A DNA stretch of 64,000 bases, from assembly GCF_029433105.1 (NCBI RefSeq), contig NZ_JARNTW010000002.1:413744-477743 (forward strand), read 5' to 3'. Source of the DNA: Runella sp. MFBS21. GTDB lineage: Bacteria; Bacteroidota; Bacteroidia; Cytophagales; Spirosomataceae. How positions within the stretch are numbered: position 1 is the first letter of the stretch; every line of letters starts with the position of its first letter. The notes below the pieces were generated by a model. The model saw only the letters and a list, made by a program, of their open reading frames with translations, was not told the DNA's origin and did not search any database. Position numbers and translations under genes: made by a program. Of this stretch, positions 20,865 to 41,306 are shown in pieces.

Positions 20865-21036
20865 AAAAAATAGAAGTAGTATCCTTCTAATGCTTAAAAT
20901 TGTCGTGCCATAAAGTATGCTTTTTATAATCTCCTCATCACAAGGAATATAAGCTGTAAGGAAGCTAAAATAGGAGAGCTGAATTGAATAAAAAATGGGG
21001 TGATAATTGCCCAAAAATCAGCAGAGGAGTAGCAAT

Positions 21037-21069
21037 AACGCAGGGAGCGTTCAAAACGCTCCCTGCGTT
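21037..21069 (-). terminator. Terminator of the 165-residue conserved gene
   Basis: A 15-bp perfect stem, AACGCAGGGAGCGTT (21037-21051) with AACGCTCCCTGCGTT (21055-21069), overlaps the last base of the stop codon at 21069. It separates this gene from the transpeptidase gene downstream on the same strand. Confidence 0.75.
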
Positions 21070-21566
21070 TATACATTTAAAGCAGCGAAATATTTTTTGA
21101 GCCAAGTGTTTTGAGCTTGGGCTTTCCAGCGCTTCATCCATTGAGCTTTGGTAGCTACTGTATTATCAAAAACTATAGAATCGGGGAGAATATCGCCTGT
21201 AGAGATTGCGGCTTTGATTTGCGAAACTGACACTGTCTGAAGATTATTGTCATCATCAAGATAAGCCAGTGAACGGTCAAAGAAATCAATCCCTAATTGT
21301 CCCCCAATTTCTTGCATCCACCTTGTGGATTTATCAATCGAACATCCGCTTGGTAGCTCTTTAGCCTCATCGACGGCAATCACCACAAATCGGTTTAAAA
21401 ATATCTTTCCTGAGGCTGTGAGTGCTAAACCATGAGCTTCCCAACCATCGAGAGCTGCGATGAGGGTTTCAGTGAGGGTACTAACCTCATCATGAGTCAA
21501 CGAGCGATTGGCTTGGTAAATCCAGACGCGGGCTTCAAAATCTATTTCGTCAAAAGGAAGATACAT
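21069..21566 (-). CDS. Conserved Bacteroidota protein, unknown
   Basis: A 165-residue soluble protein. It resembles a family seen across Bacteroidota that databases often label 'ABC transporter ATPase', a label I do not trust here because no Walker motif is visible. Recognisable stretches are EARVWIYQANR, FLNRFVVIAVDE, STRWMQEI and a C-terminal KAQWMKRWKAQAQNTWL. No signal peptide or membrane segment. Function unknown; the neighbour upstream is a Fe-S protein. Confidence 0.75.
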   Translation of the reverse strand: MYLPFDEIDFEARVWIYQANRSLTHDEVSTLTETLIAALDGWEAHGLALTASGKIFLNRFVVIAVDEAKELPSGCSIDKSTRWMQEIGGQLGIDFFDRSLAYLDDDNNLQTVSVSQIKAAISTGDILPDSIVFDNTVATKAQWMKRWKAQAQNTWLKKYFAALNV

Positions 21567-33543: not shown

Positions 33544-35010
33544 CTAATAACCCGGATTTTGGTCTTTGACAGGGTCTATGGCGGTGTTGTAGCCTAGTTC
33601 GGATACAGCAATGGGCCACAAATAAGCTTTGTCGGCAATGGTCTTGCTTTTGGTGGCCATGATGATTTGTTGTGCTTTGCCCGTACGTTTGAGTTCTAGC
33701 CATCGTTTGCCTTCATACTGAAACTCATAGCCGCGCTCTTTGATGACCAAGTCTAAAAAGGAGCTGGCAGTATAATCAGTCAATTTGAAATCAATCGCCG
33801 AAGGGCTGGTAGGAGCGAGGCCGTAAGCGCGGCGATGTACTTGGTTGAGGGCTTCTAAGGCTGGGGTTGTAGGCCCGTTGGCAGCTTGGCTAGCTGCTTC
33901 GGCATAGATGAGCAGTACATCGGCGTAGCGGTACCAAGGGGCGTCGTTGCCTGCACCTGAGCCACCGATTGCGTCAGGGTCGATGAATTTTTTTGACAAA
34001 ATCGACGTAGCCCCCAAACCAATATTCCAACTATACCAAAGTCCTTTACGAAGGTCTTTGTCGTCCCAGTTTTTATAAACAGGATTGGTGATGTCGCTGT
34101 GATGTCCATATACGCCACCGCCGCCATGAAGCCGCGTGCCGGGGTGATTGGTGAGCCAAGGCCAAAGGTTTCCTTGACCTGATTGACGAGAATATTTGAG
34201 GTAAAATACTTCTTCGGGAGTGGTGACGACGGTAGGCCCAAAAATCTTCTGAAAGTCTTCGGATGTTTGAACTGGCACCAACGAAAATTTCTTAGAAAGC
34301 ATTACTTCTTCGGCTTTGTCGCGGGCTTCGGCGTAGCGTTTGAGTTCTAAATATACGTCGGCAAGTAGTGTTTTTGCCGCCCATTTTGAGGGACGTCCCG
34401 ACTGAGAGATTTGCTCAGGTAGACCTGCTTCGGCCACTTTCAAATCCGCCAAAATAAGGTCATATACTTCGGCTACGGAATTGCGTTTGGCGTTGATTTC
34501 GGTCATGTTGGCTTCGGTGCGGATAGGTACTCCACCCCAATTTCTAACCAAGTGAAAGTAGTTGAAAGCCCGTAAAAACTTTGCTTCGGCTAGGTATTTG
34601 TCAATGTTAGCCTTGGAAATAGACTTACCATTGGGAGCATTTTTGATGACCAAATTAGCATTGCGAATACTGAGATAAAAGCCTTCCCAGGCACCCGCCG
34701 TGCGGCTGATGTTTACGTTGTCGAGTCCTTGGAAATTGTTCAAAACTGCGTAACTACCGCGTCCATAAGCATAATCAATGTGGGCTTCTAACACAGCAAT
34801 ATAAACTCCCATGCCACTCGTATTGCTACTACGCAGCGGTGTATAAATGGCATTGACGGCCGCTTCTACTTCGGCTGCTGTGTTGTAGAAAGTTTCGACA
34901 GCAAGGGATTTGGGTTCTTCTTTCAGAATGCTTTCACAAGAAGATAGCACGCACACCAGCACGAGAAAGAAGGTGGCTATTTTCGGAAAAATAAAGTATC
35001 TTTTTTTCAT
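33544..35010 (-). CDS. SusD/RagB-type glycan-binding lipoprotein
   Basis: A 488-residue outer-membrane lipoprotein with lipobox VLSSC (Cys25). N-terminal SusD motifs NTAAEVEAAVNAIYTPLRS and KANIDKYLAEAKFLRAFNYFHLVRNWGGVP are clear, as is the C-terminal YADVLLIYAEAA and EFQYEGKRWLELKRTG. It forms the lid over the SusC channel and binds the target glycan. Its start lies 44 bp after the SusC stop, so the two genes are co-transcribed. Confidence 0.96.
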   Translation of the reverse strand: MKKRYFIFPKIATFFLVLVCVLSSCESILKEEPKSLAVETFYNTAAEVEAAVNAIYTPLRSSNTSGMGVYIAVLEAHIDYAYGRGSYAVLNNFQGLDNVNISRTAGAWEGFYLSIRNANLVIKNAPNGKSISKANIDKYLAEAKFLRAFNYFHLVRNWGGVPIRTEANMTEINAKRNSVAEVYDLILADLKVAEAGLPEQISQSGRPSKWAAKTLLADVYLELKRYAEARDKAEEVMLSKKFSLVPVQTSEDFQKIFGPTVVTTPEEVFYLKYSRQSGQGNLWPWLTNHPGTRLHGGGGVYGHHSDITNPVYKNWDDKDLRKGLWYSWNIGLGATSILSKKFIDPDAIGGSGAGNDAPWYRYADVLLIYAEAASQAANGPTTPALEALNQVHRRAYGLAPTSPSAIDFKLTDYTASSFLDLVIKERGYEFQYEGKRWLELKRTGKAQQIIMATKSKTIADKAYLWPIAVSELGYNTAIDPVKDQNPGY

Positions 35011-35054
35011 TTTGAATATCTTTTTAAGATGAAATATCAAATAGGTAGCTCTTC

Positions 35055-38000
35055 TCAGAAGCCTACTCGTACGCCTGCCGTCATGGCTTTGGAAGTAGGG
35101 TAGCTATTATGGTCAAAACCTTGAGCGGTCGAGTTGGCTCCCCCGTTTGAGTTCACTTCGGGATCCCACCAAGAGTATTTGGTAAAGGTCAAGAAGTTTT
35201 GAGCACTGGCATAAATCTGTGCCGAACGCATCCATTTTACCCCCCAACTTTGGAGGGGAAGGCTATAGGAAATTTGAATGTTTTTGAGGCGCAAATAAGA
35301 GCCATCCTCTACAAACCGATTGGAGACATTGGTACGGGTGGTATTGCTCACGATGGGGTATTTGGCGTTTGGCGTAGCAGGTGTCCAGTGATTGAGATAT
35401 ACTTCGCGTGGCATGTTGAGCCCATAGCCAAAATCGACAGTATTGTTGATAGAACTTGTATTGAAGATATCATTGCCTTGGGTACCTTGTAGGAAGATAC
35501 TCAATTCGATGTTTCTGTACGACCAATTGGAGTTGAAGCCATAAATAAAATTAGGGTTGGGATTGCCGATGTAGGTTTTGTCTAACACCGTCACCGTGCC
35601 ATCGCCGTTAATGTCTTTGTATTTAATTTTGCCTTTATCGTCGTAGCCATCTTCAATATATCCCCAAAAACGCCCTAAAGGTTGGCCTTCACGAAGGATG
35701 TTGCGATTGTCGGTAATAGCCGAAATATCTACAAATCCCCCCAAAATATCCTGACCGCCATAGAGTTTGATGATTTTGTTGCGGTTAAAAGCAATGTTGG
35801 TAGTGATATTCCACTTCAATGAACCCGTCAAAATATTGGCGTTGAGACCTAGTTCAAACCCTTTGTTTTGCATTTCGCCGATGTTTTGAATCGTGCTTGT
35901 GAACCCCAAAGAAGAAGGTAACTGAACCGTATTGAGCAAATCGCGGGTGTTTTTGAGGTAATAATCTGCCGTAATTAAGAAACGATTGTTGAGGAGACCG
36001 ATGTCGAGGCCAATGTCTTTTTGTTCGGTGGTTTCCCATTTCAAATTGCCCGGAAGCACCGTGCCAGGAGCATAAGTGGTAAAGAGCGCATCGTCAAATA
36101 CGGTTTTTCCCGAAAAAAGCTGGTTGAGAGTAGCATAAGGCCCAATGGCTTGGCTGCCCGTTAGTCCCCAACTCACGCGTAGTTTGAGGTCAGAAATAAA
36201 AGTATTGTTTTTCAAGAATTCTTCGTTCGAAATGCGCCACGCTAATGCTGCTGAAGGGAAATACCCCCATTTATTGCCTTCGCTGTATTTGGATGAGCCA
36301 TCTACCCGAAAGCTGACGGTGGCTAAATACTTGCTATCGTACGAATAATTGAGCCGTCCCAGATAAGACAAAAGCGTAGATTTGGAATAACTAGAACTTG
36401 GAATACCGGGGGTATTGGCTGCGCCTAAATCGTAGGTTTGACTTGTATTGCTCAAAAAGCCCACGCCATTTCCTCCCAAAGACGTACTCAAAAAATCTTG
36501 ATATGTAAAACCCGCTACTGCCGAGATGCTGTGTCTTTGACCGATAGTTTTGAGATAACTGATGGTATTTTCGCTCAAAAAACTGGTAAACTGACTTGTG
36601 CTGATTCCGGCACTTCCTTGCGAATTGATGTAGTTGTTGGTAGTGTAAGAATCAGTACGGTCATCCATGTTTTCGATACCTCCCGAAACCTTGATGGTCA
36701 ACTCGGGAATCGGGTTATAAATAAAAGCGGCATTGGACAATATCCTATTTCCTTTGGTTTGGTTGCTTTGCTCATTGAGAGGATTGATAGGGTTGATGAG
36801 TAAGGCGCTGATGAATGAATAAGCTGTACCAAAAACGCGGTAAGTACCATCGTCGTTGTAAGGTGAAAGAATAGGAGGAGAAGATACCGCTGCCGAAATC
36901 AATGACCCGCCGCGATTGCCGCCCTGACTATTTTGGGCTTGGGTCATAATCCGAGTTAGGGTAGTGGCTAGGTTGAAAGTGAATTTTTTGCTGATGATGT
37001 GATTGATGTTGGTTCGGAGCGAATAGCGATTGTAATCACTTCCACGGACGATACCTTCCTGGCCAAAAGCACTTCCTGATACCGAAAACTGGGTTTTTTC
37101 GTTGCCTCCGCTGATATTAAGCGACATAGTTTTCATGGGTGCTTTCTGAAATACAAAATCTTGCCAATCAAATCCTTCGCCAAAGGCGTCAATTTGTGCC
37201 TGTGTGAAGTAGGGTCGAATGCCGTCGTTGGTAGCTTGTTCGTTATAGAAGGTGGCATACTCGCGGGCGTTCATCAAGTCTAGTTTTTTGCGGAGCGACT
37301 GCGAACTAAAACTTGTTTCAAAATCCACGTTGGTTTGGCCCGCTTTGCCGCGTTTGGTCGTAATGATAACAACGCCATTGGCTCCTCTCGAACCATAAAT
37401 AGCAGTAGCTGAGGCGTCTTTTAAGATTTCGATGTTTTCGATGTCGGCGTTGTTGAGCACAGTTGGATTGCTACCCGCAATCGGAAAGCCATCTACTACG
37501 TACAGTGGTTCGTTGCTTCCCTGAATGGAATTGGTGCCCCGGATACGCACGCTCACACTCCCGCCGGGAGCGCCGTTGTTTTGGACCACTTGTACCCCCG
37601 CTGCCCTACCCGAAAGTGCCTGCAACACGTTGGTTGTAGGAAAAGCATTGAGGTCTTTGGATTTGATTTGGGTGACGGAGCCAGTCAAATCACTTTTTTT
37701 GACCGTGCCGTATCCCACTACGACTACTTCGTCTAATACCTTTTGGTCTGGCAATAGCTGAACTTTGAGGGTGCTTTGTTTCCCAATGACTATTTCTTGA
37801 TTGAGATAGCCTACAAACGAGAAAATCAGGATGCTGTTTTCGTCGGGTACGTTCAGCTTAAAACTTCCATTGGCTTCGGTGGTAGTGCCTTTGGTAGTAT
37901 TTTTAATAAGTACATTGACCCCCGGAAGTCCTTGCCCTTTTTCGTCGGTGACGATGCCCGTTATGAGTTGTTCGGAAGTAGGTTGGGCAAACAAAAAACT

Positions 38001-38405
38001 GCTTTTTGTATCCGTGTTAGGTGAACTCAATGGAAGGTTAGGTTGCCGACTTAATAGCACCTGTTTTTTGCCAACTACTTCATAGTGAATGGATTTGTTT
38101 TTGAAAATAGATTCTAGAACAGCTAAAAGCGGTTGTTTTACGACATTGACAGAGACCCGTCGGTCGGCTTGAATATGCTGAGGAATGTAAGAAAAACGGA
38201 CATCGGCGAGTTTTTCGATTTTGGTCAGTACATAGCTAATTTCTTTATCCTCGACCGATAAACTGATTGGTTTTTCTAGCAAAGTTTGCGCCAAAGCATC
38301 TTTGGCGTATGCGACTCCCATAAACAGGATAGCGCACAAAAATTGAGTGAGAGTAATACGCATAATTGTAAGGGCGTATGCGTGAAAAAGTGGGGGTAAT
38401 TTCAT
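35055..38405 (-). CDS. SusC/RagA TonB-dependent receptor with STN domain
   Basis: A 1,116-residue outer-membrane porin from the ATG at 38405. A signal peptide ends DALAQT. An STN domain (about residues 40-95) signals to FecR anti-sigma factors. Then come a carboxypeptidase-like domain (about 150-215), a plug with VVVGYGTVKKSDLTGSV, PLYVVDGFP and ATAIYGSRGANGVVIITTKRG, and a beta-barrel ending VRVGF. The STN domain agrees with the ECF/FecR genes upstream. Alternative starts are 38363 (MRITLTQ) and 38468. The gene start is crossed by a putative antisense RNA. Confidence 0.96.
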   Translation of the reverse strand: MKLPPLFHAYALTIMRITLTQFLCAILFMGVAYAKDALAQTLLEKPISLSVEDKEISYVLTKIEKLADVRFSYIPQHIQADRRVSVNVVKQPLLAVLESIFKNKSIHYEVVGKKQVLLSRQPNLPLSSPNTDTKSSFLFAQPTSEQLITGIVTDEKGQGLPGVNVLIKNTTKGTTTEANGSFKLNVPDENSILIFSFVGYLNQEIVIGKQSTLKVQLLPDQKVLDEVVVVGYGTVKKSDLTGSVTQIKSKDLNAFPTTNVLQALSGRAAGVQVVQNNGAPGGSVSVRIRGTNSIQGSNEPLYVVDGFPIAGSNPTVLNNADIENIEILKDASATAIYGSRGANGVVIITTKRGKAGQTNVDFETSFSSQSLRKKLDLMNAREYATFYNEQATNDGIRPYFTQAQIDAFGEGFDWQDFVFQKAPMKTMSLNISGGNEKTQFSVSGSAFGQEGIVRGSDYNRYSLRTNINHIISKKFTFNLATTLTRIMTQAQNSQGGNRGGSLISAAVSSPPILSPYNDDGTYRVFGTAYSFISALLINPINPLNEQSNQTKGNRILSNAAFIYNPIPELTIKVSGGIENMDDRTDSYTTNNYINSQGSAGISTSQFTSFLSENTISYLKTIGQRHSISAVAGFTYQDFLSTSLGGNGVGFLSNTSQTYDLGAANTPGIPSSSYSKSTLLSYLGRLNYSYDSKYLATVSFRVDGSSKYSEGNKWGYFPSAALAWRISNEEFLKNNTFISDLKLRVSWGLTGSQAIGPYATLNQLFSGKTVFDDALFTTYAPGTVLPGNLKWETTEQKDIGLDIGLLNNRFLITADYYLKNTRDLLNTVQLPSSLGFTSTIQNIGEMQNKGFELGLNANILTGSLKWNITTNIAFNRNKIIKLYGGQDILGGFVDISAITDNRNILREGQPLGRFWGYIEDGYDDKGKIKYKDINGDGTVTVLDKTYIGNPNPNFIYGFNSNWSYRNIELSIFLQGTQGNDIFNTSSINNTVDFGYGLNMPREVYLNHWTPATPNAKYPIVSNTTRTNVSNRFVEDGSYLRLKNIQISYSLPLQSWGVKWMRSAQIYASAQNFLTFTKYSWWDPEVNSNGGANSTAQGFDHNSYPTSKAMTAGVRVGF

Positions 38406-38412
38406 ACCTTTG
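38405..38412 (+). promoter_or_regulatory. TACCTTTG -7 box, candidate antisense promoter
   Basis: TACCTTTG on the plus strand matches the Bacteroidota -7 consensus TAnnTTTG. No TTTG lies 19 bp upstream. It would start a plus-strand RNA at about 38,419, opposite the SusC leader. Confidence 0.35.
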
Positions 38413-38418
38413 GGTGTT

Positions 38419-38539
38419 TTTGTTGAACGATTTAGACAAAGACATGCCAGCCCCTGCGCATCTGACAAGGATGTAACCGAACACGAAAATGGGGCTTGAG
38501 CTGGTCGGTGATGCTTGGACCCATCGCCGACCTTTTTTT
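38419..38539 (+). ncRNA. Putative cis-antisense RNA over the SusC leader
   Basis: Predicted from a -7 box at 38405-38412 and a strong plus-strand terminator at 38503-38539. The RNA would be about 120 nt and complementary to the 5' leader of the SusC mRNA. This layout, with an ECF/anti-sigma locus, matches the DonS type of antisense RNA described in Bacteroides fragilis. The 5' end is a guess; the 3' end is well supported. Confidence 0.45.
38503..38539 (+). terminator. Plus-strand terminator between FecR and SusC
   Basis: GGTCGGTGATG (38503-38513) pairs with CATCGCCGACC (38522-38532), then T7. The single non-Watson-Crick pair is G-U in plus-strand RNA but A-C in minus-strand RNA, and the T run is on the plus strand only. 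The signal therefore serves plus-strand transcription, against the direction of both flanking genes. Confidence 0.8.
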
Positions 38540-38605
38540 ATTGGACTAGAAGAAAAAGTGAGTAATTTAGGACATGAGACTTGGTTTTAGGGTGAAACAA
38601 TGTAT

Positions 38606-39634
38606 TTATTGACAACCTGCTCCTTTGATGACCACTTGGGTGTCTACTACTTCGTAGGAAGCATTGAGGAGTTTACAAATGATAGTCAGATTGTCGTATA
38701 AGTTTTCTTGCTCCAAAGTCGTTGTTATCAAACAGTGGCTCATTAGTGCTTCGTCATATATAATATCTATTCCGTATGTTTTTTCGAAAGCCGCAATGAT
38801 GGTTGACAAAGGGGCTTTCTGAAATGCGAAAGAAGGCGTTTCTTCCAACGGAATGAGAATCGCGGGTTTTTCTACCAGCGTCTTAACGAGTTTGTTTTCT
38901 GAACCTACATACGTCACCTGTTGGTTGGGGATAAGCACGACGGCTTCGGGGTTTGTGTCTTTGGATGACTCCGTGGTAGCTAATACCGATTTGGTGGCAT
39001 AGACCGATACTTTTCCTGTTCTAACAGCCACGGTGGTGTTTTTGTCATGAGCATAAGCTTTTACCAAAAAACTTGTTCCCAAAACCCTTGTAACTAAGTG
39101 GGTGGAATAAACAAGAAAGGGTTTGTTGGGATTTTTTTGAACTTCAAAAAAAGCTTCTCCTTCCAAAATTACTTCTCGCTTAGTACCCACAAAATCTTTT
39201 GGATAACTGAGGCGGCTCTTTGGATGAAGCGTCACTATGCTTCCATCTGCGAGCCTAATCTGTTCGTTTTTGGAAGAAGTATTGGTATGCTCTACCAAAG
39301 GAGTTTCGAGAGAAGTAAGTTGCTGTTTGAAAGTACCAATAGCCGACGGTGCCGGTTTGAGAAGAAGCCACCCTAATCCCAAAGCGATTATAATTGCGGC
39401 AGCTGCGGCCCAGTAGGGCTGCTGATACCATTTGCGGAGTGGTGCACTTCTCACGGTTTGGCTAGCCAATACGTCCCAATTGTGAGCAAGTAGTTTCTTT
39501 TTTTCAGTTTGACTCGGAAGCTCTACCTCACTATCCAACGACTCATACCATTGCTCTAGCAGTAGCTGTTCGGCTTCGGTACATTCTCCTTTGAGGTATT
39601 TGGCCAATAATTCTTGGTATTTGGTAGAGTCCAT
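38606..39634 (-). CDS. FecR-type anti-sigma factor
   Basis: A 342-residue single-pass inner-membrane protein. The N-terminal cytoplasmic part (residues 1-75) binds the sigma factor. A membrane helix spans about residues 78-98 (YWAAAAAIIIALGLGWLLL). The periplasmic FecR domain has IRLADGSIVTLHPKSRLSYP, REVILEGEAFFEV, PFLVYS and VRVLGTSF-like strands, followed by the C-terminal domain that contacts the STN domain (LSTIIAAFEKTYGIDIIYD). The start at 39634 is used; the frame reaches 39700 but those codons look non-native. It lies 112 bp after the sigma gene. Confidence 0.95.
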   Translation of the reverse strand: MDSTKYQELLAKYLKGECTEAEQLLLEQWYESLDSEVELPSQTEKKKLLAHNWDVLASQTVRSAPLRKWYQQPYWAAAAAIIIALGLGWLLLKPAPSAIGTFKQQLTSLETPLVEHTNTSSKNEQIRLADGSIVTLHPKSRLSYPKDFVGTKREVILEGEAFFEVQKNPNKPFLVYSTHLVTRVLGTSFLVKAYAHDKNTTVAVRTGKVSVYATKSVLATTESSKDTNPEAVVLIPNQQVTYVGSENKLVKTLVEKPAILIPLEETPSFAFQKAPLSTIIAAFEKTYGIDIIYDEALMSHCLITTTLEQENLYDNLTIICKLLNASYEVVDTQVVIKGAGCQ

Positions 39635-39746
39635 TTTGGTATGCGCCTTGGTGACAACTAAGGACATAAACGGATAACTCCCAAAATTCCCTAAGGCCAA
39701 ATGGACTTTTTTTGAGATTTTTTTTAATTAATCAATAATAGAGCGA

Positions 39747-40325
39747 TTAAGACAGATAAAACAATACCAGACTTGTGACAAAATCACGGAGGTTTTGGCG
39801 AAGAAAAGAAGTAGAACGAGAGAGGTGATATTCGATGGTTTTGTCAGAAAGGTTGAGTCTTTCGGCTATTTCTTTGATGGTGAGGTGCTCAAACCGATTT
39901 AAGATAAAAATCTCACGGGTTTTTTCGGGCAATTGACCCAACGCTTTTTGAATAGCCTCGGAGAGTTCGTTGTGTTGGACGGCTTCGGTAGTGGCAAATA
40001 CTTCTTCGGGAAAAAAGAGGCGAAGCTGAGTCAGGTAGTGCTCTTCGCGGATGTTTTTTCTGATATAGTCAATCATTAAGTTGCGAAGAGAAATCCCCAA
40101 AAAAGCAGGTAGATTGTTGCCCCGAATGGTGGCGCGTTTTTGCCACAACATCATAAAAAGCTCCTGCGCCAACTCTTCGGCCACTTCTCTTCGACGAAGT
40201 TTTCGGTAAGCAGTTATGTACATTTTATACCAATATCGCTCATAAAGCTCCCTAAAAGCTTGCTCATGGTCTTGATGATGAAGCAAGTCCAACAGCTCTT
40301 GGTCGGTCAATGATTGTAGGGACAT
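39747..40325 (-). CDS. ECF RNA polymerase sigma factor
   Basis: A 192-residue ECF sigma factor. Region 2 is AFRELYERYWYKMYITAYRKLRRREVAEELAQELFMMLWQKR, region 4 is LPEKTREIFILNRFEHLTIKEIAERLNLSDKTIEYHLSRS. It transcribes the locus when FecR releases it on signal from the STN domain of SusC. Start set at the ATG at 40325. It diverges from the GntR gene across 210 bp. Confidence 0.96.
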   Translation of the reverse strand: MSLQSLTDQELLDLLHHQDHEQAFRELYERYWYKMYITAYRKLRRREVAEELAQELFMMLWQKRATIRGNNLPAFLGISLRNLMIDYIRKNIREEHYLTQLRLFFPEEVFATTEAVQHNELSEAIQKALGQLPEKTREIFILNRFEHLTIKEIAERLNLSDKTIEYHLSRSTSFLRQNLRDFVTSLVLFYLS

Positions 40326-40535
40326 TGGAATCAGAATTTGTGAACAAAGGTGCAATAAGTCTTAAAATATCACAAAATTTACTTGCTATTTTTTAATAAT
40401 TTTGGATTTGAATAGTCTGCTCATTTTGGTTTTTTGTCGTATGATTTTGAAATCCAAATTTTAACTTGTTCTTTTAAGTAAGACAAATCCGAGGAGCTGC
40501 TATAAAGTGGCTCTATTTTTAAAAATTGAACCAGA
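40326..40535. other. Divergent intergenic region, sigma gene and GntR gene
   Basis: No gene. TAATTTTG at 40397-40404 matches the -7 consensus for the GntR direction, without a -33 partner. TTTGGATTT (40401-40409) and AAATCCAAA (40450-40458) form a 9-bp inverted repeat with a 40-bp spacer that may be a pair of operator half-sites or chance. Confidence 0.35.
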
Positions 40536-41306
40536 ATGCTTCAAGAAAAGGCAAAATTTATCGCCATTAGTGAGGAAATTATCGAAAAAATAAAGTCGGG
40601 AGAGTTGCTGCCTGGCGATCAAATTCAATCTGAAAACGAACTTATCAAGCATTACAAAATAAGTAATACTACGGCTCGAAAGGCATTGCTGGAGATAGAG
40701 TCCAAGGGCTGGGCGCGGCGTATCAAAGGAAAGGGGACGTTTGTGCTTAATCGTACCGAAGACCATCATTTGTTACGGACGCTGGGGTCGATTTATGCGA
40801 CGCGTCGCGGATTTCACGATAGCTTGATTGCCGAAGGATTTACGCCCAAAAACATCGTACTTGAAAAAACGATTCTGCAAGATGGTATTTCGTCCGAAAT
40901 CAATGGGCGGCATTTTATCATTGATGGGCCAGTATTGAAAATCCACCAACTCCGCTACGCTGACGACCTTTTGATGAAAGACGAAGTCAAATATATTTCG
41001 TTGACATTGTGCCCCAAAATCAACAAAGTACCTACTGAAATTTCTTATTTTAAGGTGTATGAAGATACTTATAACCTTAAAATAAGCGAAGTGCAGCAGA
41101 CACTCGGCGTGTCGATTTTGACACCTAATACCACCAATTTTGAAATCGATAAACCGATTCCAGCCTTTGTATTGGATAGTGCGGTAGTATGCTCAAACGA
41201 TAAGGTAGTCGAAATTGAGCAGTCGTATTATCACGGTGAAAAATACAAGTTTGCGGTCATTGCAAGTCCCGAATACAACTACAAAACGGCTAATCAAACC
41301 ACTTAA
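40536..41306 (+). CDS. GntR/HutC-family transcriptional regulator
   Basis: A 256-residue regulator. Residues 1-70 are the winged helix (KSGELLPGDQIQSENELIKHYKISNTTARKALLEIESKGWARRIKGKGTFV). Residues of about 95-245 are the UTRA ligand-binding domain (LRYADDLLMKDEVKYISL, FVLDSAVVCSNDKVVEIEQSYYHGEKYKF). It probably senses a sugar or sugar phosphate from the second locus. Its 3' end overlaps the SGNH gene's 3' end by 17 bp. Confidence 0.93.
   Translation: MLQEKAKFIAISEEIIEKIKSGELLPGDQIQSENELIKHYKISNTTARKALLEIESKGWARRIKGKGTFVLNRTEDHHLLRTLGSIYATRRGFHDSLIAEGFTPKNIVLEKTILQDGISSEINGRHFIIDGPVLKIHQLRYADDLLMKDEVKYISLTLCPKINKVPTEISYFKVYEDTYNLKISEVQQTLGVSILTPNTTNFEIDKPIPAFVLDSAVVCSNDKVVEIEQSYYHGEKYKFAVIASPEYNYKTANQTT

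Follow-up and report, generated by a model that had tools for sequence, protein, structure and literature searches.

Putative DonS-like cis-antisense RNAs opposite the leaders of FecR/ECF-linked susC genes in Runella and other Bacteroidota

In the genome of Runella sp. MFBS21, a strong hairpin followed by a run of T lies between a fecR gene and a susC gene, on the strand opposite to both. Does this strand encode a small antisense RNA that acts on susC, of the type known as DonS? The locus lies in a 64,000 nt stretch of DNA (contig NZ_JARNTW010000002.1, positions 413,744–477,743; hereafter, the window) of a 7.88 Mb genome that is assembled in 72 contigs and carries 143 Plug matches and 33 FecR genes. 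Four minus-strand genes, spanning 33544–40355, follow one another in the order ECF sigma, FecR, SusC and SusD: an ECF sigma factor (39747–40355; Sigma70_r4_2 1.9e-17, Sigma70_r2 9.1e-10), a FecR-type anti-sigma factor (38606–39700; PF04773 1.6e-17, PF16344 2.9e-11), a susC-type TonB-dependent receptor, the presumed target (35055–38405), and a SusD-family lipoprotein (33544–35040; PF14322 5.8e-28, PF07980 4e-24). The gene beyond the sigma factor (40536–41306) is on the plus strand. The same locus is present in Runella zeae DSM 19591 (L033), with a SusC that is 98% identical.

The susC start codon is probably the ATG at 38405–38403 (MKLPPLFHAYALTIMRITLTQ...), rather than that at 38366; the start was moved because many paralogues have the layout M-x12/13-M(K/R)(I/L). 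It lies 13–14 codons upstream of the obvious MRIT start, and the resulting N-terminal extension is common to many STN-SusC paralogues. The domain search was performed with the translation from 38366, and gave an STN match of 23.7 bits, under the Pfam cut-off of 28.4.

The plus-strand hairpin has the sequence GGTCGGTGATG-CTTGGACC-CATCGCCGACC (38503–38532) and is followed by seven T (38533–38539; seven U in the RNA), giving the form of an intrinsic terminator (38503–38539, plus strand; stem-loop 3 of the predicted RNA). The stem comprises 11 pairs, seven of which are G-C and one a U·G that is valid on the plus strand only, so that the preliminary description of this terminator was accurate in strand, stem length, wobble and T-tail. 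The same description had the terminator running against all of its neighbours, which is true of sigma, fecR, susC and susD, and untrue of the plus-strand gene at 40536–41306. The terminator ranks first among the 19 terminator-like sites listed for 30–46 kb. In the window as a whole, it belongs to a group of five sites with a stem of at least 8 bp and a hairpin energy of −18.3 kcal/mol or lower. In Larkinella rosea (L038), the terminator hairpin is identical to that of the window at 30 of 30 positions, loop included, with 71% identity over the whole RNA and 67% over the susC DNA; no 30-nt stretch of susC has 29 matches between the two.

The putative antisense RNA gene runs from 38416 to 38539 on the plus strand (~124 nt), the 5' end being placed from a promoter-like box and the first stem. 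Folding gives (i) stem-loop 1 (38416–38443), in which GUUUUUG (38416–38422) pairs with CAAAGAC (38437–38443), (ii) stem 2 (38450–38495), in which GCCCC (38450–38454) pairs with GGGGC (38491–38495) and encloses an inner hairpin, and (iii) the terminator. The fold z-score of this RNA is −3.0 and −3.3 in two estimates, and the covariance model R1, whose seed includes the window locus itself, matches 38416–38542 with 103.5 bits. At the Rfam gathering score there are no matches in the window and none in 20 further loci; two matches at relaxed E look like chance. The sequence evidence favours a DonS-like kind of RNA, for which Rfam has no matching family.

Is the arrangement particular to this locus? 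The genome gives 44 FecR_C matches, 11 of which (in frames of 929–1233 aa) were dropped; all junctions of the remaining 33 stand-alone FecR genes were taken. For comparison, 55 control genes were hand-picked from the 143 Plug matches as open frames of ~990 aa or more with no adjoining FecR. Terminator scoring covered the 220 nt upstream of susC and the first 40 nt of the gene, with a required stem of at least 8 and an energy of −12 kcal/mol or lower, and the start codon was set to the first in-frame ATG, and shifted in L003, L007, L010 and L019 before junctions were counted. An antisense terminator is found in 18/20 fecR–susC junctions of at least 100 nt, and in 0/13 shorter ones; a sense terminator is found in 0/20 of the long junctions. 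These counts are to be read with the fact that the 100-nt cut-off, like an 80-nt cut-off used below and several start codons, was set after the data had been seen. SusC genes without FecR carry an antisense terminator in 2/55 cases and a sense terminator in 2/55 (18/20 versus 2/55 antisense; Fisher p 3.5e-13). The two long junctions without a scored terminator (L005 and L023) have hairpins with T-tails that can be seen by eye. Conservation of the terminator at other ECF-linked susC genes, which had been put forward as a check on the antisense reading, is thus borne out.

Two classes of FecR-susC locus can be told apart: junctions of less than 100 nt, without the antisense RNA and with a SusC that mostly lacks the N-terminal extension, and longer junctions with the RNA. 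The 13 short-junction loci are L011, L016, L017, L019–L022, L027, L029, L031, L032, L169 and L170, and the extension is present in L017 and L029. Separately, L142 (C31:4207–5227), a SusC gene with no adjoining FecR, has an antisense terminator at −131 with the family-like apex GGTTTGGTTGCCGCCAAACC.

A common fold plan recurs at these junctions. It opens, at what is presumed to be the 5' end, with stem 1 (GUUUUUG/CAAAAAC); stem 2 (CCCC...GGGG) follows and encloses inner hairpins, and the terminator forms stem 3. In 20 members, stem 1 starts 8–12 nt upstream of the susC start codon. Among 23 aligned members, 18 of the 23 pairs have changed on both sides and 94.4% of cells are paired, in an alignment that was fitted to the model and so favours covariation. 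On all five measures the alignment exceeded every one of 500 shuffles, and pairing fell to 42–56% when the partner strand was slid out of register. Helix 1 is paired in 96.6% of cells, with both-sided changes in 4/7 pairs; helix 2 is the weakest by pairing (80.2% of cells), with both-sided changes in 5/5 pairs; and helix 3, the terminator, has such changes in 9/11 pairs. The antisense strand is also the better folded of the two (mean z −4.2 versus −2.9 for sense; 40 RNAs, 60 shuffles each). An encoded peptide is unlikely: ATG open reading frames of at least eight codons occur in 14/40 RNAs, and no sequence common to them was seen by eye.

Whole-RNA alignments made with MAFFT misplaced stem 1, and the seed of R1 (A4) was therefore cut to begin at stem 1. 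It consists of eight sequences, four from this genome and four from relatives, chosen for consistent register and with a hand-written structure. Applied to 89 sources (33 FecR loci, 55 controls and the window), R1 found 10 further members from the genome at E ≤0.0035; the first non-member was at window position 20947 (E 0.0049), and the best control, L145, had E 0.16. The match at 20947–21077 (28 bits) is a palindromic hairpin with T-rich flanks behind the gene at 21069–21566, and looks like an ordinary terminator. For six of the 20 members (L003, L007, L010, L012, L018 and L023), R1 yields no correctly oriented match at E values of up to 10; the fold is therefore not uniform. Across the whole genome, where 150 of 1317 candidates were scored, the 12 best R1 matches (E <0.003) all lie at fecR–susC junctions, eight of them outside the seed; the next matches, C7:1956–2045 (E 0.11) and C31:9162–9242 (E 0.14), are weak. 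R1 matches at places that had not been pre-selected (L055, L059, and L111 at 15143) proved to be second fecR–susC junctions. A further model, R2, built from A6, gave 15 whole-genome matches at E up to 1, of which 13 are at fecR–susC junctions; the remaining two are the C7 site again and the opposite strand of a member.

The predicted RNA is preceded by a putative −7 promoter box, TACCTTTG (38405–38412, plus strand; consensus TANNTTTG), 90 nt ahead of the terminator. With susC starting at 38405, the first base of the box is also part of the susC start codon. The preliminary description had placed a box at the expected promoter; the −7 box is there, and no −33 TTTG is evident at the locus. The promoter type used for comparison is that of sigma-ABfr, the consensus of which we take to be TTTG at −33 and TANNTTTG at −7. 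Among 58 box-bearing loci, TTTG is not enriched at any spacing from 14 to 25, which more than anything else weakens the case for a promoter. Any −33 element would fall within the DNA that encodes the N-terminal extension of SusC. In B. thetaiotaomicron, a canonical promoter accompanies 52% of cis-antisense RNAs, according to the available text of PMC7366714.

The box itself follows the long junctions. TANNTTTG occurs at −7/−8 in 16/20 own-genome junctions of at least 100 nt and in 0/13 shorter ones, and at −7, −8 or −3 in 3/55 controls. Shorter forms behave in the same way: CAAA stands at the place of the box in 16/20 long junctions, 0/13 short junctions and 6/55 controls, and AAA at −6 to −4 of susC in 17/20, 1/13 and 8/55, respectively. 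Since CAAA is rare in the controls, the box is not accounted for by a sequence context that all SusC genes would have at their start codons; it could in part be a translation-start context, though the controls are mostly without it. In Sphingobacterium and Pedobacter (L192, L199, L200, L218 and L221), the susC start codon often lies within the box, TACATTTG, and the SusC protein then begins with Met-Tyr (MY).

How far does the arrangement reach? A DNA search with the 241-nt junction gave a match in 1/58 other genomes, and primary sequence is therefore not enough to follow it. Eighty relatives of SusC were taken, 77 of which were readable (L096, L102 and L106, having no upstream ATG, were omitted). 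With an energy cut-off of −8, and with FecR judged by length only (an upstream gene of 300–490 aa within 300 nt), relatives with a FecR-size upstream gene carry an antisense terminator in 27/37 cases and a sense terminator in 2/37; for those without such a gene, the counts are 2/40 and 9/40. Four loci from Larkinella and Spirosoma (L034, L035, L044 and L099) have a different 5' half and the terminator stem CCCGCTATG/CATAGCGGG, and are possibly a diverged branch. Within the family to which Runella belongs, 26/39 genomes have R2 matches at E 0.001, 111 in total and as many as 12 in a single genome. Of 33 R2-matched loci inspected—with FecR and SusC recognised by own-genome profiles, and three loci near contig ends placed by hand—31 lie opposite a fecR–susC junction. 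All 26 newly fetched loci are among these junctions, three of them (L356, L357 and L381) being training members. The other seven inspected loci come from a phylum-wide R2 search, which gave matches in 5/198 genomes, including the genome of origin; with 17 candidates per genome scored, it is no fair negative. Among its three matches outside the genus, L173 is a fecR–susC junction; the two exceptions among the inspected loci, L174 and L175 (E ~0.004), are not, and look like chance.

Beyond the family, 117 FecR loci were collected: the sources were nine named genomes of other families and another ten from the Tannerellaceae, which we take to be the family of P. distasonis. Three loci had an unreadable downstream gene; one of them, L216, was grouped with Prevotella but belongs to the Winogradskyella genome, which leaves the counts below unchanged. 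Of the 97 junctions that are 80 nt or longer, 56 have an antisense terminator, 2 have a sense terminator (binomial p ~1e-14) and 52 have the box; in shorter junctions the antisense count is 2/17. Among the longer junctions, antisense terminators are found in 10/11 from Pedobacter, 11/15 from Sphingobacterium, 9/14 from Kriegella, 5/8 from Algoriphagus, 4/8 from Chryseosolibacter, 3/5 from Maribacter, 1/1 from Winogradskyella, 11/25 from Tannerellaceae, 1/3 from P. distasonis and 1/7 from Prevotella. They are also few in samples of Bacteroidaceae that are Prevotella-like by size (4/16 and 3/11), and Prevotella-like genomes are mostly without the layout. Some of these antisense hairpins, such as those of L277 and L285, are unlike those of the RNA family. 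In 72 of the 90 loci L190–L279, a set that leaves out all 11 Prevotella loci and seven others, R2 gives 28 matches at E <0.07, which are individually weak, all antisense and all inside the junction. In 37 Bacteroidales loci, R2 gives eight antisense and two sense matches at E up to 1, again individually weak. Together with the 56/97 antisense terminators, these matches indicate that the putative RNA family reaches into other orders.

The layout, the conserved fold and its strand, and the association with FecR-linked susC genes are direct results of these comparisons. From them we infer transcription, pairing, repression and a physiological logic. With good confidence, we propose that the plus strand encodes a ~124-nt, DonS-like cis-antisense brake on the FecR/ECF-linked susC. 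A housekeeping-type box next to the susC start codon would drive transcription of the RNA, which would start ~11 nt upstream of the susC start, run through the leader and stop ~65 nt short of the end of fecR. While FecR holds the ECF sigma factor, low-level antisense RNA would pair with the few leaky susC leader transcripts, and the resulting duplex would block 30S loading or expose the transcript to degradation; interference would come in addition from convergent transcription across the start codon. Once a substrate releases the sigma factor, susC transcription would overrun the brake. Most sigma/FecR-linked susC genes of the genome with a junction of at least 100 nt would own a private copy of this device.

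The predicted RNA does not cover the susC start codon; because stem 1 begins 8–12 nt upstream, the duplex would end just short of it, inside the 30S footprint. An uncertain candidate for the susC sense promoter (AAAACC ... CATGTCC; 38570–38588, minus strand) was picked out by eye; should it be the ECF promoter, the RNA would end ~25 nt inside the susC transcription start. A related gapped motif (spacing 13–19) occurs in 12/40 junctions, against 1.25 expected in shuffles, with a spacing that is not uniform in the set and is only 6 at the window locus. Plain repression may not be general, because antisense RNAs of B. thetaiotaomicron correlate both negatively and positively with susC in the accessible part of PMC10994844.

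Could the hairpins have arisen, or act, in another way? We give next to no credence to a chance hairpin without function. Terminator-like sites as a class are indeed not enriched in 30–46 kb (19 versus 17.9 in shuffles), but dinucleotide shuffling of the 200-nt junction, with both strands scanned, gave a hairpin this strong in 0/1000 cases (a T-tailed hairpin of 8 bp or more, at −12 kcal/mol or lower, came up in 1/1000), and recurrence, covariation and model matches contradict chance. It is very unlikely that the conserved hairpins instead belong to the leader of the susC mRNA, as a cis-acting element such as an attenuator, riboswitch or protein site, and that the antisense terminator results only from a palindrome that happens to adjoin A-rich DNA. 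A sequence that can form a stem on one strand can do so on the other, so the leader would hold the same hairpins, and the sense strands too fold better than their shuffles; however, the combination of hairpin and T-tail keeps to the antisense strand at 18/20 junctions versus 0/20 for sense, and elsewhere at 56 versus 2 of 97. Wobble pairs point the same way, with 48 G·U on the antisense strand against 11 A·C the other way, in a count biased by the choice of members partly for their antisense terminators. Leader structure also gives the start-codon box no role.

Two further alternatives accept the terminator and differ over its use. The antisense RNA might act by transcriptional interference alone, or its terminator might just keep stray transcription out of fecR, with no role for pairing. 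Two transcription start sites pointing towards one another at a distance of ~150 bp, as the candidate sense promoter would imply if correct, and an RNA that ends before fecR and leaves the start codon uncovered would all suit this explanation; yet the covariation in stems 1 and 2 would be needless for a mere guard, the stem 3 loop is as conserved as the stem between Runella and Larkinella, and DonS-like RNAs negatively affect susC expression in Bacteroides (available text of PMC7366714). We regard it as unlikely. Possible, if doubtful, is that the RNA also acts in trans, its stem 3 loop binding a common protein or other susC leaders, such that the family forms a network. By eye, the stem 3 apex resembles RYG-YUNGCNRC-RY across paralogues and orders, and a private antisense RNA would not need a common loop; trans-acting FopS sRNAs on susC are known (PMC11697453, in the part available). 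Against it, YUNR loops are only weakly enriched (14/35 versus 8.2 expected). A loop pattern matches 24/29 antisense terminators near susC and 24/111 other terminators, but was itself drawn from the members.

Our preferred reading is thus the cis-antisense brake. The likeness to DonS drawn in the preliminary description is supported by the ECF sigma/FecR genes upstream, the recurrence, the better-folded antisense strand and the covarying fold, and the best reading of the genomes compared is that a putative family of DonS-like cis-antisense repressors extends well beyond Bacteroides. We are evenly divided on a bolder proposal: that DonS-like RNAs are one ancient structured class, already in existence before the orders of Bacteroidota diverged. 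Each FecR/ECF-controlled susC would have a private antisense RNA of three stems as a fixed accessory, its promoter would be built into the susC start codon, and its terminator loop would have been retained for a shared partner, so that an RNA brake would be standard for sigma/anti-sigma nutrient sensing in much of the phylum. If many FecR-linked susC genes carry their own antisense RNA, then a control layer described in gut Bacteroides would be a widespread component of how the phylum senses nutrients, and one whose layout can be found by sequence in genomes without RNA data. The accessible part of PMC10994844 calls for functional characterisation of such RNAs, for which a defined fold, a putative promoter position and a target geometry can now serve.

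Several known systems share parts of this arrangement. The FecI-FecR-FecA system has the same row of sigma factor, FecR and receptor with an STN-like domain; in the classical form of that system, no antisense RNA is known from the gap between fecR and the receptor gene. FopS and GibS of B. thetaiotaomicron, which act with RbpB, are likewise small RNAs, and FopS repress the translation of SusC-like transporters. FopS differ in being ~65–70 nt long and in pairing with several susC mRNAs encoded elsewhere (available text of PMC11697453), whereas the Runella RNA lies opposite the leader of its own susC and is thus not trans-encoded.

The closest likeness is to the DonS-type antisense RNAs of polysaccharide utilization loci (PULs), which we take to sit at ECF/anti-sigma loci of B. 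fragilis. The accessible literature, with subscription papers mostly outside its scope, yielded no description of such RNAs at susC outside Bacteroides: the available text of PMC9723704 gives antisense RNAs of Flavobacterium psychrophilum, with Bacteroides named as the model, and places none at susC, while that of PMC7160235 gives antisense RNAs at other genes. In Bacteroides, the portions available describe DonS-like antisense RNAs of 78–128 nt that negatively affect susC expression (PMC7366714), antisense RNAs at 15 PULs in B. fragilis (PMC9723704), and 32 PUL-associated antisense RNAs in B. thetaiotaomicron (PMC10994844). The Runella RNA differs from these in coming from another order, and in being predicted from sequence where expression has been shown in Bacteroides; the three-stem covarying fold and the start-codon box are described here for the Runella RNAs, and DonS is likened to them by description rather than by sequence. 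In other respects the two are alike: (i) a short RNA is divergent from, and opposite to, the 5' region of a susC homologue, (ii) the susC gene concerned is linked to an ECF sigma/anti-sigma pair, which we take to be characteristic of the DonS-type family, (iii) the length predicted here, ~124 nt by the placement of the 5' end, falls within the 78–128 nt range, and (iv) there are many copies per genome, 18 to 20 in the case of Runella.
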